32,166 nucleotides of DNA from Deltaproteobacteria bacterium (GCA_030698575.1 JAUYMQ010000100.1:1-32166); one strand, 5' to 3'; shown: positions 12,921 to 26,712, counted from the first letter of the stretch. Program-made: numbers and translations. The notes: generated by a model from the letters alone, not told the origin.

Positions 12921-14360
12921 ATGAAGGGAATAGCTTCCATCTGCCTGCCCCGCTGCGAGCGTTCGACTCTCCTGCAGGGCGTGATGTTCCTCGGGCTCGC
13001 CTTCACCTGGCTCTTCCTTGCGGGCTCGGCCCGCGCGGACGAGCTGGCCGAGATCGCCTTCACCGAGGGACTTGTCGCCGTCAAGACCGGAGCGCCGGAA
13101 GAGGCGGTCGAACGGCTCGGCGAGGCGACGCAGCGGAACCCTGAGGACGCCGTCGCCTGGTACTGGCTGGGGGTGGCGCACGCCCGGCTGGATGAGAAGG
13201 AGGCGGCGCTCGAAGCCTTCGATCGTGCCCTCGCGCTCGACCCGCGGTTCGCCGAAGCCTCCTATGCCCGGGGAAACGTCCTCAACAGCCAGGGAGACGA
13301 GCGGGAGGCCAAGCTCGCGTGGGATCAGGCTGCAGCCCTGGCTCCCGGTTCGGACCTGGCCCGAAGGGCGCGTGAAATGGGCGACGTGCCGCGCCCCCCC
13401 GATGCGTCCGGACGAGACTGGTATGCCGACGCCGGGATGGGGGTCGAGTACGATACGAACGTCTTCCTTTATCCCAACCAGGGCGATGCCCCTGTGGTCG
13501 GGGGGATCGGCGGGAAGCGCTACCGCCCGAGTGATCCGATCCAGGACACCCGCTTCGTCTTCTACGTCGACGGCGGCTACCGGCTCTTCGGTGGCGACAA
13601 CTGGTCGATCAATACCCATCAGTCGTTTCAGGCTGGCGTCCAGGCGCGAAGCGAGGATGTGAATTATGTCGAGTACAGGCCGTCTCTTTCGCTGCTCTAT
13701 GACGCCGACCCGCTGACCTTCGGCCTGAGCTACACCTTCACGCTCTTCGGGCTGGGCGGCGAGGTCCTCAGTGTCAGCCATGAGGTGGAGCCGAGCGTGA
13801 CGCTCAGGGAGGGCAACCGGAGCTACACGCGCCTGTTCTACCGTTACACGCGCAATGACTTCGTGGATGACGTCGCGTCGAATTTTGATCTTTCCGGGAA
13901 TGATCACCGCGTGGGAATAGACCAGTATCTTCTGCTCTTCGACCGGAGAGGCTATGCGCGCCTGGGGGTGGAGTTTCGACGGGATCTCACCGACGGATCG
14001 GAGTATTCGGGAAGCTACACGACCCTTGGCGGCGAGATCCTGGCCCCGATCCCCGGCGACGCCACTCTGCGGCTGGAGGCCGCGCAGCGCTGGGCGGACT
14101 TCGACAATGACAGCGCCTTCAGCATTCCCAACACAGTGTTCTTCGTAATGGGCCCGACCTTCAACCGCACCATCGTGCCGGTGCGCACGGGTGATCCGAA
14201 GAACGAAATTCTCACCACCGTAAGCGCGACCGTATCGCGCGAGTTCGGGGATCACTGGAGCGCCTCAGCGCGCTACATCTATTCTGTGAATCAATCGACC
14301 ATCCAGACGTACGATTACAACCGGAGCATCTTCTCTGTTTTCGCGAACTACCGTTTCTGA
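12921..14360 (+). CDS. TPR-repeat outer-membrane beta-barrel protein
   Basis: Signal peptide-like N-terminus; TPR-type segment (AVAWYWLGVAHARLDEKEAALEAFDRALALDPRFAEASYARGNVLNSQGDE); then alternating aromatic beta-strand pattern ending with a C-terminal Phe (SIFSVFANYRF). Confidence 0.85.
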   Translation: MKGIASICLPRCERSTLLQGVMFLGLAFTWLFLAGSARADELAEIAFTEGLVAVKTGAPEEAVERLGEATQRNPEDAVAWYWLGVAHARLDEKEAALEAFDRALALDPRFAEASYARGNVLNSQGDEREAKLAWDQAAALAPGSDLARRAREMGDVPRPPDASGRDWYADAGMGVEYDTNVFLYPNQGDAPVVGGIGGKRYRPSDPIQDTRFVFYVDGGYRLFGGDNWSINTHQSFQAGVQARSEDVNYVEYRPSLSLLYDADPLTFGLSYTFTLFGLGGEVLSVSHEVEPSVTLREGNRSYTRLFYRYTRNDFVDDVASNFDLSGNDHRVGIDQYLLLFDRRGYARLGVEFRRDLTDGSEYSGSYTTLGGEILAPIPGDATLRLEAAQRWADFDNDSAFSIPNTVFFVMGPTFNRTIVPVRTGDPKNEILTTVSATVSREFGDHWSASARYIYSVNQSTIQTYDYNRSIFSVFANYRF

Positions 14361-14405
14361 TCGCCACGAATGGGCGACATCACCGCCGATGCAAGGAGAA
14401 TCTTC

Positions 14406-15251
14406 ATGAGTCATTCACGACTTGGCGCCCTCGCCGCCGGGCTTGCGGTCCTGAGCATGCTCTCGGCTCCCCCCGCCCTCGCCCAGGCGGTGGGCAAAAG
14501 CGTTGCGACAGTGGCGGAGAGGGCCCTCCCGGCGGAGGTGAAGCGGTCGGGGCAGACCGACTGGGCGGAGATCGAGGACGGGGGTGAAGTCCTTCTCGGT
14601 GACACGCTCCGCACCGGCGAGGGCGGCAGGCTCAAGATCGTGTTCAACGACAAGAGCATCATGATCCTGGCCGAGAACACCCTGCTCGAGATTACCCAGC
14701 ACGTCTATGATCCGGCCGCCAAGGAGCGCACGTCGCTCTTCAAGCTCTATGAGGGAAAGGTGCGAGCGATTGTGGGTGAGCTGTTCGGGGCCCAGTCGAG
14801 GTTTGAGATCGAGACGCCCGTGGCAGTGGCGGGCGTGAAGGGCACCGACTTCGAGACTCATCACCCGAAACCCTGCAGCACGGTTTACACACAGCTCGGC
14901 GACTCGTATGCCAGGAACGTCAATCCGGCCGTCAGTGGTGACGTGGTCGTACCGGGCGGATTCATGACGACCATCTGCGAGGGCGCGAAGCCCACGGACC
15001 CGGTGGAGGCTTCGGAGGAGTTCCTCGAGGGGACGATCCCGCTGCGGGGGCTCGACACGACGCGGCCTGGAACGCCGCCCATGGACGGCTTTCCGCCGCT
15101 TGGGCCGGACAACCAATTGCCTGGAAAGCCCAACATCCCTCCGGGTCCGCAGCCGAACATTCCACCCACGAGCACGGGCGGGCTGCCGCCAGGTGGCGCG
15201 CCGGTCACGCCGCCGCCGCCCAGGCCCATCGTGAACAACACGATGCAGTAA
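14406..15251 (+). CDS. FecR-domain exported protein with Pro/Gly-rich C-terminal tail
   Basis: Signal peptide (LAAGLAVLSMLSAPPALAQA); FecR-type segment DGGEVLLGDTLRTGEGGRLKIVFNDKSIMILAENTLLEI...GKVRAIVG...FEIETPVAVAGVKGTDFE; tail PNIPPGPQPNIPPTSTGGLPPGG. Confidence 0.87.
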   Translation: MSHSRLGALAAGLAVLSMLSAPPALAQAVGKSVATVAERALPAEVKRSGQTDWAEIEDGGEVLLGDTLRTGEGGRLKIVFNDKSIMILAENTLLEITQHVYDPAAKERTSLFKLYEGKVRAIVGELFGAQSRFEIETPVAVAGVKGTDFETHHPKPCSTVYTQLGDSYARNVNPAVSGDVVVPGGFMTTICEGAKPTDPVEASEEFLEGTIPLRGLDTTRPGTPPMDGFPPLGPDNQLPGKPNIPPGPQPNIPPTSTGGLPPGGAPVTPPPPRPIVNNTMQ

Positions 15252-15295
15252 TCCCTCATCGCCGCGTGCCGCGCGCGCGGCGCGTCCCGGAATGG

Positions 15296-15330
15296 ACAGA
15301 AGCCCGAGGGCGCCCCCCTCGGGCTTCTGT
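15296..15330 (+). terminator. Intrinsic terminator-like hairpin after the FecR gene
   Basis: ACAGAAGCCCGAGGG - CGCCC - CCCTCGGGCTTCTGT: perfect 15-bp stem; no long T-tract follows. Confidence 0.6.
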
Positions 15331-15413
15331 TATGCCGGGCTGCCTCAAGTTCTCGGGAACGTGTTAAGGTTGGCTTGCTGGAGCGTTACACCCCGCCTCT
15401 GGGAGAGGAATAG

Positions 15414-17582
15414 ATGCGTGGCTGGCTGAGCCCGAGCGGCTGGAAGATCGGCCTTGCTTGCGCCGTCATATCGCTGGCTCTCTGGTACGCGGGCATTGCC
15501 TTCCTGCAGGACATCGAACTCAAGACCGTCGATGCGCGTTTCCGTCTCCGCGGCGTTCGGGATGTCAGCGATCGGGTGGTGATAGCCGCCATTGACGAAC
15601 GGAGCATCGACGCGCTCGGGCGATGGCCCTGGCCCCGGTCGGACATCGCCGCGCTGGTCGACAGCCTGAAAGACCTCGGCGCGCGCGTCATCGCCTTCGA
15701 CATCGTTTTCGCCGAACCTGAGCGAAACCACCCCGAAAACGATCAAATGCTGGCCGAATCGATCGAGCGGGCCGGCAACGTCGTGCTCGGTTACTACTTC
15801 CGCACGGCGCAGAAACGGCGGTATGCGGGCCCGACGAAGGGTCCTCCGGACGACCTCGCCAAGGAAATAGCCGTGGAGGAGGCGAAGCGCTTCAACCAGG
15901 CCCTCGCGGCGGTGTCAACCTCGCAGGTCTCGATCCTGCGGATGACCGAGGCGCCGCGAACGCCCGGGCAGTGCTCGGGCGTGGAGCCCAACATCCCCAT
16001 CATTGGCGGCGCATCCAAGGCCATGGGTTACTTCAGTATTCAGCCCGACATAGACGGCGTGGTGCGCCGCATCCCGCTTGTGCTCTCCTGTCGTGACGAC
16101 TACTACACCTCGCTCTCTCTCCGAGCCACGTCGGCTTATCTCGGCAACGCCCCGATCGCAATCGATCTCCGGAGAGACGGCATCCGATCCCTCACCGTCG
16201 GCCCGGGGCGCGTGAAAGTGGACGAGGCGGGCTTTCTGCGCGTCAACTTCCCGGGCCCTGCGCAGTCCTTCGCGTATTACTCCGCGGTGGATCTCATCCG
16301 CAAACGCGTCAACCCCGACGCGGTGCGCGACCGGCTGGTTATCGTCGGCTCCACAGAACTCGGCATCGAGGATATCCGTCCGACCCCCTTCGGCCCGGTC
16401 GTTCCGGGGCCGGAGGTCCAGGCGGCGGCCATCGAGACCATTCTCCGTGGATCTTTCATCCAGCGGGACAACGCCATCATTCTTGCCGACGTGCTCATGG
16501 TGTTCATCCTCGGCGTGGGGCTTGGCGGACTGTTCGGCCGCCTGCCCAGCGCCGTGCACCGTGCCGAGGCTTTTCTTCTTGCATCCATCCTGTTCATCGC
16601 CTGGCAGGGGTTCTCCTTCGGAAAGCTCGGGCTGCAGTTCAACACCCTTTACCCGGGCATCTCCCTCGGCCTCACCTACCTCGGCGTCAGTCTTTATGAG
16701 GCCTTCGGCATCGAGGCAAGCAGCCGCCGGACGCGCGCGGCCTTCGAGGCCTACGCGCCCCCGGAAGTCGTAGAAATGATCGTCAAGGATCCGGCGCGGC
16801 TGGTGCTCGGGGGAGAGCGGCGTGACATCTCGGTCCTGTTTTCGGACATCGAGGGCTTCACGACGCTCTCCGAGGCCCTCGCGCCGGAAGAGGTCGTGCG
16901 GCTGCTCAACACCTATCTCACACCCATGACCGAACTGGTGTTCGAGCACGGCGGCACGCTCGACAAGTACATCGGCGACGCCATCATGGCCATCTTCGGA
17001 GCGCCGATCGACGCGGCTGACCATTCCGAACGCGCATGCCGGACCGCGCTCCAGATGATGAAAGCGCTCGACGCGTTGAAGGATCAGTCCTGGTTCGATC
17101 GTGGCTGGCCCGACATACAGATCAGGATCGGCGTCAGCTCGGGTCCCATGGCGGTCGGGAACATGGGTACCGACATGCGGTTCGCCTATACCGCCATCGG
17201 CGACGGCGTGAATCTGGCGTCGCGGCTGGAGGGACTCAACAAGGATTACGGCAGCCGCATTCTTATCAGTGAGTTCACGCGCGATCAGTTGAAGACGGTG
17301 TTTTCCGTGCGAGAGATTGATGTGGTGCGCGTGCGTGGAAAGCGGGTGCCTGTGCGCGTGTACGAACTGCGCGGTGAAGGAGTCCCATCGATGGAGGAGG
17401 CGCGCTTCATCAGCGACTTCGAAGAGGGGCTGAAGGCCTTCCGATCCCAGCGTTACGATCTTGCCCGCGAGCGCTTCCGCTCCTGCCGGGAGCAGCAGCC
17501 CGAGGATGGCCCCGCGCGAGTGATGCTGGCGCGGTGCGACGCGGCCGAGAGGAAGCAGGATCTCGAAAAGGCGGCGCTCTGA
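15414..17582 (+). CDS. CHASE2 sensor-domain class III adenylate/guanylate cyclase
   Basis: N-terminal TM then CHASE2-like domain (DARFRLRGVRDVSDRVVIAAIDERSIDALGRWPWPRSDIAALVDSL); TM segments; cyclase catalytic domain RRDISVLFSDIEGFTTLSE...LDKYIGDAIMAIFGAP...FAYTAIGDGVNLASRLEGL. Confidence 0.95.
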   Translation: MRGWLSPSGWKIGLACAVISLALWYAGIAFLQDIELKTVDARFRLRGVRDVSDRVVIAAIDERSIDALGRWPWPRSDIAALVDSLKDLGARVIAFDIVFAEPERNHPENDQMLAESIERAGNVVLGYYFRTAQKRRYAGPTKGPPDDLAKEIAVEEAKRFNQALAAVSTSQVSILRMTEAPRTPGQCSGVEPNIPIIGGASKAMGYFSIQPDIDGVVRRIPLVLSCRDDYYTSLSLRATSAYLGNAPIAIDLRRDGIRSLTVGPGRVKVDEAGFLRVNFPGPAQSFAYYSAVDLIRKRVNPDAVRDRLVIVGSTELGIEDIRPTPFGPVVPGPEVQAAAIETILRGSFIQRDNAIILADVLMVFILGVGLGGLFGRLPSAVHRAEAFLLASILFIAWQGFSFGKLGLQFNTLYPGISLGLTYLGVSLYEAFGIEASSRRTRAAFEAYAPPEVVEMIVKDPARLVLGGERRDISVLFSDIEGFTTLSEALAPEEVVRLLNTYLTPMTELVFEHGGTLDKYIGDAIMAIFGAPIDAADHSERACRTALQMMKALDALKDQSWFDRGWPDIQIRIGVSSGPMAVGNMGTDMRFAYTAIGDGVNLASRLEGLNKDYGSRILISEFTRDQLKTVFSVREIDVVRVRGKRVPVRVYELRGEGVPSMEEARFISDFEEGLKAFRSQRYDLARERFRSCREQQPEDGPARVMLARCDAAERKQDLEKAAL

Positions 17583-25038: not shown

Positions 25039-26712
25039 ATGAAGCGCGCATTGCTATTCTCCGCCCTCCTCCTGCTGGCCGACGCCTTTTCGCTGCCCGT
25101 GCCCGCGCTCGTTTTCGCTGCCACCGATGACGTGCCTGAATCGCTTCGTGAGGCAGGCGAAGCGCTGGGCCGGGAGGTTCCGGAGTCGCCGAAGGAGGGC
25201 GAAGATGAAGCGGCGCCCGCCCGGGCAGTTCCGCCCGAGGTGCAGGCGATTCTCTCCAAGGGGAACCGCTTCTATGCTCTGGGAGATTACGACGCCGCCC
25301 GGGTGCAGTATCTCGAGGCAATCAGAAAGGATCCGGGATCTCCCGAGGGCCACTACGGGCTCGGGATGACCTACCTCGCGCTGGGCGATGTGAACGCGGC
25401 GATCATCGCCTGGCGACGAGCCGGCGGGGTCGATTCGGTGACTGCGGGGCTGTTCGACGAGTTCCGGAGTTTCCGCTCCGCGCGCGACGCGGTGCAATCG
25501 CAGCTCATGGCCACCCGCCGAAGCCAGGCTGAGGCGGTGGCGCGCGAGGAGCAGCCGGTGAGCGAGCGCTACGTGGGGCGCGGCGCGAGCGGGCTCTTCG
25601 ATTCATCCAACCGGGCCATGCTTGGGCGCCTCGACATTCCGCCGGAAGAGGAGACGGATACCCGGGCGCAGGATGGCGAGCTTCCTCCGCTGGGCAACAC
25701 CGCCTTTCCCCCGCCCCCGGATGCCGTCGCCGGGGAAGATCTTGCTCAGGAGCAGCTCCCGAGAGCCGCCACGGAAATGCCGCTCTCGGTTCAGAACGTG
25801 CCCGACACGCCGCGACCCGGGGGGCCGGCGCCTCCGGCCGTCGCCGCTCTCAGCCCCGAGCAGGCCGCCGACCCGAAGGCGCGGGGCATCTACTATGTCC
25901 AGACCGGAAACGATCAGGGCGCGGTGACCGCCTTCGAGGAGGTCCTGGCCACGGACCCGCGCGACAGCGATGCACTGAGCTACCTGGCCGGGCTCTATCT
26001 GGCGGGCGGGCGCGCCGACGATGCGGAAGGGGCCTACAAGCGCCTCGCCCGGCTCGAGCCGGCCTCGAGCGTGCCTCTCACCAACCTGGGAGGTCTGTAC
26101 TTGAATCTCGGCCGATTCGATGAGGCATCGACGACGCTCCAGGAGGCGCTGCGGCTCGACCCGTCGGATTCGCTGGCCATCAACAACCTGGCGGGCGTCT
26201 ACTACAAGACGGGCCGTGTCGATGACGCCGTCCGCGAGCTTAATCGGGCCATCGAGATCAATCCGGAGGATCTGAACTCACATAACAACCTGGCGGGCAT
26301 CTACTACCGCCAGGAAAGATTCGAGAAGGCCATCGAGGAGCTGCAGAGAATCCTGTCTCTCGATCCCTCGCACGCTGTTGCTGCCGCGAACCTCGAGGAA
26401 GCCTACAAGCGCAAGCGTGAGTTCGAGTCCGCCCGCAGTGAGCGGAAAATGCGGGCGCGCCAGATCGTGCTCCCTTCCGAGGAGGAAGCGAAGGCCGTTC
26501 GCGCGGAGATTCAGGACGGAAATGACTTCGTGCGGCTCGCCCGCGAGCGGAGTATCGATCAGACGGCGGCGAAAGGCGGCGATCTCGGTTTCTTCGACAA
26601 GGGCGATCTGGACAGCGAGGCGGAGGAAGCCATCCGCAAGCTCGCCCCCGGCGAGATCTCCGGTGTGGTGAAAACCCCCGGCGGCTACAGCATTTTTCAG
26701 CGGCTCGACTGA
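25039..26712 (+). CDS. Exported TPR-repeat protein with C-terminal parvulin-like domain
   Basis: Signal peptide-like N-terminus; multiple TPRs (SSVPLTNLGGLYLNLGRFDEASTTLQEALRLDPSDSLAINNLAGVYYKTGRVDDAVRELNRAIEINPEDLNSHNNLAGIYYRQERFEKAIEELQRILSLDPS); C-terminus RARQIVLPSEEEAKAVRAEIQDGNDFVRLARERSIDQTAAKGGDLGFFDKGDLDSEAEEAIRKLAPGEISGVVKTPGGYSIFQRL. Confidence 0.9.
   Translation: MKRALLFSALLLLADAFSLPVPALVFAATDDVPESLREAGEALGREVPESPKEGEDEAAPARAVPPEVQAILSKGNRFYALGDYDAARVQYLEAIRKDPGSPEGHYGLGMTYLALGDVNAAIIAWRRAGGVDSVTAGLFDEFRSFRSARDAVQSQLMATRRSQAEAVAREEQPVSERYVGRGASGLFDSSNRAMLGRLDIPPEEETDTRAQDGELPPLGNTAFPPPPDAVAGEDLAQEQLPRAATEMPLSVQNVPDTPRPGGPAPPAVAALSPEQAADPKARGIYYVQTGNDQGAVTAFEEVLATDPRDSDALSYLAGLYLAGGRADDAEGAYKRLARLEPASSVPLTNLGGLYLNLGRFDEASTTLQEALRLDPSDSLAINNLAGVYYKTGRVDDAVRELNRAIEINPEDLNSHNNLAGIYYRQERFEKAIEELQRILSLDPSHAVAAANLEEAYKRKREFESARSERKMRARQIVLPSEEEAKAVRAEIQDGNDFVRLARERSIDQTAAKGGDLGFFDKGDLDSEAEEAIRKLAPGEISGVVKTPGGYSIFQRLD

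Follow-up and report, generated by a model that had tools for sequence, protein, structure and literature searches.

A predicted TPR-barrel, a FecR-domain protein and a CHASE2 cyclase as a candidate split surface-to-cAMP relay in a deltaproteobacterium

Genetic evidence shows that NsrA and CyaK of Sinorhizobium meliloti, which act in the control of secondary infection, are required to perceive an external signal, a protein of plant or microbial origin, that increases cyclic AMP (cAMP)-dependent expression (PMC7529298). Here we compare this system with a locus in a 32,166-nucleotide contig (JAUYMQ010000100.1:1-32166; the whole stretch is hereafter "the window") of a Deltaproteobacteria draft genome (GCA_030698575.1; 4.13 Mb, 91.6% complete, 4.6% contamination). 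At positions 12921-17582 of the window, three consecutive plus-strand genes encode a tetratricopeptide repeat (TPR) protein with a predicted outer-membrane beta-barrel, an exported FecR-domain protein and an inner-membrane CHASE2 cyclase. We hold with moderate confidence that this trio is a split relay of the NsrA-CyaK type, linking the cell surface to cAMP, in which the three proteins would be physically coupled. We favor this reading because of the domains and catalytic residues of the three proteins, the recurrence of their genes as neighbors, and the fact that NsrA joins FecR, TPR and barrel parts beside a CHASE2 cyclase.

We determined the domains of NsrA from its gene on pSymB. Immediately upstream of cyaK, and overlapping its start, lies a gene for a 1190-amino-acid (aa) protein, which we take to be NsrA because its position and length fit and because a barrel has been published for residues 600-1200. 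The protein contains a FecR domain (residues 66-160; E 3e-15), TPRs (about 235-587) and a C-terminal region that ends in an outer-membrane-type strand. As in the window, a CHASE2 class III cyclase thus has FecR, TPRs and a C-terminal outer-membrane barrel encoded right next to it. Moreover, the FecR domain of NsrA is homologous to the window FecR family (hhalign E 3e-13), and CyaK is homologous to the window cyclase family (E 8e-87). The two systems differ in that NsrA is a single chain whereas the window encodes two proteins, barrel then FecR, and in that the window has a hairpin ahead of the cyclase and a 14-strand barrel not detectably related to that of NsrA. When parts are fused in one species but encoded as separate neighbors in another, they would usually be expected to work together.

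Related combinations have been described elsewhere. Clusters of CHASE2 adenylate cyclase, phosphodiesterase, FecR and TPR genes are reported in Campylobacterota, with the TPR protein named by its TPR domain only (PMC9239204), and the cluster is therefore not entirely new. These clusters share a CHASE2 cyclase with FecR and TPR genes, and a Sulfurimonas locus (L071) has the same gene order as the window; unlike them, the window trio has no phosphodiesterase among its immediate neighbors. In the Burkholderia BiofilmReg operon, a LysM-FecR protein lies beside a CHASE2 sensor (PMC5192318), but a histidine kinase and a response regulator take the place of the cyclase, and there is no TPR-barrel. 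In magnetotactic bacteria, a CHASE2 cyclase gene is found 3' of mtxA (PMC4439547).

Fec/Pup signaling (FecIRA, PupB-PupR) likewise partners a FecR-type periplasmic domain with an outer-membrane protein. In that system, PupR binds the outer-membrane receptor PupB on its periplasmic side. In the scanned genes of the window, however, we found neither an extracytoplasmic function (ECF) sigma factor nor a TonB-dependent receptor, as an earlier, sequence-only reading of the window had stated, and we rejected the classic FecIRA arrangement on these grounds. The window FecR protein also lacks a cytoplasmic anti-sigma part, and the output of the system would be a cyclase. Against this background, our analysis adds three points: the TPR protein is predicted to form a 14-strand barrel, barrel and FecR are constantly paired in many families, and the window corresponds to NsrA-CyaK in split form.

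Three consecutive genes and the hairpin between them

The sequence-only reading had proposed three consecutive genes for a barrel, a FecR protein and a CHASE2 cyclase; all three open reading frames (ORFs) are present where it placed them, and their Pfam domains agree with the assignment. The first gene (12921-14360, plus strand), preceded by GGAGG, encodes a 479-aa protein with a signal peptide and periplasmic TPRs at residues 40-155 (13038-13385), identified by Pfam and in the AlphaFold2 model. In this model (mean predicted local distance difference test score (pLDDT) 72, predicted template modeling score 0.52), TPR helices at residues 59-155 are followed by 14 strands at residues 167-478 (13419-14354), ending in an outer-membrane-type C-terminal strand (...FANYRF). 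No Pfam barrel family matches this region, which has homologs in 24 other genomes; we found no relatives of the barrel on plasmids. Foldseek matched the model to BcsC (best), CymA and OmpG, with PelB also listed. Together, the TPRs, model, C-terminus and Foldseek matches support an outer-membrane barrel with periplasmic TPRs, and the models and signal peptides suggest that the protein would sit in the outer membrane with its TPRs facing the periplasm.

The second gene (14406-15251, plus strand) encodes the FecR-domain protein. Its ORF opens at 14370, and translation probably starts at 14406, 45 bp after the barrel stop, because AAGGAG lies just upstream of this codon and a signal peptide (MSHSRLGALAAGLAVL...) follows it. 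The FecR domain (14601-14861; PF04773, E 3e-14) is predicted to fold like the periplasmic domains of FecR and PupR, with Foldseek matches to 4m0n (E 3e-7) and to the PupR cell-surface signaling domain 6ovk (E 2e-5). It also resembles the cell-surface anchoring domain of the RTX adhesin MpAFP (5ix9), which was matched both by Foldseek and by profile (E 8e-12). The Pro/Gly-rich C-terminal tail (15054-15248) is predicted to be disordered, most of residues 229-293 being modeled with a pLDDT below 50. An exported FecR-domain protein with such a tail is what had been read from the sequence.

The third gene (15414-17582, plus strand) encodes a 722-aa class III nucleotidyl cyclase with a TPR-like C-terminal end and a predicted place in the inner membrane. 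Hydrophobic peaks lie near residues 12, 355 and 384. The proposed CHASE2 domain (15471-16520; PF05226, E 6e-61) and cyclase catalytic domain (16821-17363; Guanylate_cyc PF00211, E 5e-29) were both recovered with strong scores, and catalytic positions D478, K518, D522, T593, N600 and R604 are invariant among 13 relatives. In class III cyclases, a Lys/Thr pair points to adenylate cyclase. The protein is likelier to make cAMP than cGMP, because Lys518 and Thr593 fit adenylate cyclases; a guanylate cyclase is less likely on the same grounds. No solved structure that we found matched the CHASE2 region, and a limited literature search returned no defined CHASE2 partner.

The FecR stop and the cyclase start are separated by 162 bp. 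Within this gap lies a perfect 15-bp hairpin with a 5-nt loop (15296-15330, plus strand), the longest such hairpin in the window, and the 162-nt gap containing it folds better than all 200 shuffles (z -3.5). No T-run follows the hairpin on its 3' side (the sequence there is TATGCC), and a terminator scan of the window did not list it. The hairpin noted in the sequence-only reading is thus present with a perfect stem, while the separate transcription of the cyclase drawn from it stands in part: a role as terminator, or possibly attenuator, is plausible, and the hairpin may reduce the transcription that continues past FecR into the cyclase. The barrel and FecR genes are probably co-transcribed, with the cyclase probably transcribed at least partly apart from them.

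Recurrence in other genomes and setting in its own

We surveyed CHASE2 and FecR genes in 59 genomes, of which the other 58 are related to that of the window at the domain level only. FecR lay within 5 kb of 13 of 63 CHASE2 matches, against about 0.4 expected; with the window excluded, the figure was 12 of 62 CHASE2 genes, in 11 genomes. At the genome level (58 genomes), 23 carried both domains, 8 only CHASE2, 2 only FecR and 25 neither (Fisher p 2e-7). Among 80 loci located with the cyclase alignment, FecR was found within 5 kb in 24 of the 75 that were scored; where each flank spanned 4 kb or more, this held for 13 of 43. The FecR profile is conservative, having missed a Pfam FecR domain in L226, and several surveyed loci end at contig ends.

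Barrel homologs concentrate next to FecR. In the cyclase-alignment loci they occupied 4 of 47 FecR-neighbor positions versus none of 1003 other positions, and in FecR-centered loci 6 of 94 versus 2 of 594. Apart from the barrel of the window, a barrel-only profile run on 386 genomes identified 26 strong barrels distributed over 24 genomes, nearly all with TPRs (24/26). FecR was adjacent to 20 of these 26, immediately downstream on the same strand in 19 cases, and CHASE2 lay within five genes of 13 of 26, in a search whose profile drew six of its seven sequences from CHASE2-centered loci. Eleven weaker barrels had FecR adjacent in no case and CHASE2 nearby in no case (Fisher p 1e-5 for FecR and 3e-3 for CHASE2). 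Overall, the clustering is not a product of chance and recurs far above chance expectation. The remark that FecR and CHASE2 proteins are sometimes neighbors holds outside the window, and the neighborhood statistics to which the sequence-only reading had pointed show strong recurrent co-localization in many families, not its absence.

The constant element is a pair, barrel then FecR on one strand, with CHASE2 downstream, divergent or convergent. The full window order of barrel, FecR and cyclase recurs in the Sulfurimonas locus, whose TPR protein has a barrel-type C-terminus, in L223, and in a Pontiellaceae locus (L070) where the barrel was detected by an ORF-level profile. In another locus (L098), a fusion of FecR, TPR and barrel-like parts lies about 2 kb from a CHASE2 cyclase.

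FecR proteins vary at these loci. In L116, L118, L119, L121 and L135, FecR partners beside TPR-barrels carry at their C-terminal end an amphipathic motif resembling a strand (KGKIIIKF, ANIQLQFV and VHIRIVFPK are examples), which is absent from the window FecR and could be a donor strand or a barrel-docking signal; a CHASE2 gene lies two genes away in L118, and none was detected at the other four. FecR proteins of 1225-1546 aa occur within about 5.3 kb of CHASE2 cyclases in the alphaproteobacterial loci L059, L096, L053 and L067, and the two that were scanned (L059 and L096) bear cadherin and RTX repeats. These repeats and the weak match of L059 to the LapA retention module suggest FecR-anchored adhesins linked to cAMP. 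The FecR C-termini of L064 and L071 may resemble TbpB, with Pfam giving no support for L064 and none reported for L071.

In the window, uvrA and a gene for a 261-aa protein without a Pfam match lie upstream of the trio, and a CBS protein gene lies downstream on the opposite strand; an enoyl-CoA hydratase (Pfam) completes the immediate neighbors. Farther along, the gene at 25039-26712 codes for a protein of 557 aa in which numerous TPRs are combined with a prolyl isomerase domain of the PPIC (parvulin) type. The CHASE2 gene is the sole copy in the genome, as is the trio's FecR domain among those passing the Pfam cut-off. Two further proteins with weak FecR domains (L248, 8187-10154, 655 aa; L249, 1458-3227, 589 aa) adjoin neither a TPR-barrel nor a CHASE2 gene. 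The genome has seven class III cyclase matches. Just two of its proteins scored above cut-off for cyclic-nucleotide binding, one a patatin fusion and the other a GAF histidine kinase (L174 and L175, on contigs C99 and C449); both are candidate readouts of cAMP.

Relay, export and other explanations

In the relay that we favor, the first protein would present its TPRs to the periplasm, and FecR would act as a periplasmic adaptor that binds these TPRs and contacts the inner-membrane cyclase through its periplasmic CHASE2 domain. A surface event, either ligand binding or occupancy of the barrel, would alter the FecR-CHASE2 contact and thereby change how much cAMP the cyclase makes in the cytoplasm. 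Domain content supports the first and last components, and the contacts between them, the signal and its sign are proposed by us. The match of the FecR fold to PupR suggests a physical precedent for the FecR-barrel contact, since PupR binds PupB. As a candidate, the barrel-FecR-CHASE2 relay to cAMP or cGMP put forward in the sequence-only reading therefore stands on co-localization and on the NsrA-CyaK precedent, with cAMP the likelier product; the contact, the signal and its direction would follow the scheme above.

Several observations weigh against this reading. The hairpin stands between the cyclase and FecR, and barrel-FecR pairs often occur with no CHASE2 gene detected nearby. No CRP-type cAMP receptor such as Clr was found above cut-off in the 91.6%-complete genome. 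Homology between the window barrel and the barrel of NsrA was rejected, with none detectable by hhalign. Finally, disruption of smc02177, an S. meliloti FecR-domain gene near cyaD1, left the shoot-signal response unaltered (PMC5498481); that response itself depends on NsrA and CyaK.

A real rival, if one that we consider rather unlikely as the main account, is that barrel and FecR together serve in Slam-like export. Here the pair would chiefly export or anchor FecR-bearing or neighboring surface proteins in the manner of Slam/type XI systems (PF04575, SlipAM), and the cyclase, when present, would do no more than monitor cargo assembly. The modeled N-terminal TPRs and 14-strand barrel of the window protein match Slam topology, and two of its homologs (L041 and L064) pass the PF04575 cut-off; the window barrel itself, however, gives no match up to E 1, for which reason we rejected it as a Slam, and there is no TbpB-like C-terminal barrel cargo. 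The anchoring idea gains from the resemblance of FecR to the MpAFP domain, from weak matches of the L059 and L064 FecR proteins to the LapA retention module, and from FecR proteins near CHASE2 that are sometimes fused to adhesin-type repeats. It is also consistent with the existence of pairs with no detected CHASE2 gene, and with loci in which a large extracytoplasmic protein flanks the pair or separates FecR from the cyclase; such proteins carry beta-helix, NHL or PQQ propeller, DUF11, Big_2, clostripain or Ig-type domains. In the window, by contrast, FecR carries no cargo domain, only the disordered tail (Pfam; model), and no large surface gene adjoins it. Moreover, NsrA, built from the same parts, behaves as a receptor. 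Part of the barrel-FecR job may nevertheless be export or anchoring, because the pairs often lack a nearby CHASE2 gene and often lie beside large extracytoplasmic proteins.

The cyclase might instead be an independent CHASE2 sensor with its own transcript, adjacent to a barrel-FecR operon without a functional tie. The hairpin, the 162-bp gap and the many CHASE2 genes with no FecR nearby would fit such an arrangement, but we regard it as improbable given the strong recurrent co-localization in unrelated genomes, opposite-strand arrangements included, and given the NsrA-CyaK precedent. Slightly less probable still is a polysaccharide-export channel of the BcsC, PgaA or PelB type regulated through cAMP: the Foldseek matches to BcsC and PelB and the weak similarity of homologs' C-termini to exopolysaccharide/PEP-CTERM outer-membrane families point that way, against 14 predicted strands rather than 16, the absence of a polysaccharide synthase next to the trio in the scanned genes, and FecR as the constant partner.

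Beyond the split relay, we tentatively propose that TPR-barrel and FecR form a widespread two-protein outer-membrane device that would both signal the state of a surface protein and hold or export it, with CHASE2 as a dedicated reader of FecR wherever a CHASE2 cyclase or another CHASE2 effector is attached. If this were true, CHASE2 would gain its first defined partner, and the device would constitute a general pathway from the outer membrane to a second messenger, with NsrA-CyaK as a special case in which the parts are fused. The presence of the barrel-FecR-CHASE2 set, fused or split, in many families turns the question of what CHASE2 senses into whether FecR binds CHASE2. It also suggests that NsrA, a receptor of the legume symbiosis, is one case of a much wider Gram-negative route by which surface information reaches cAMP.

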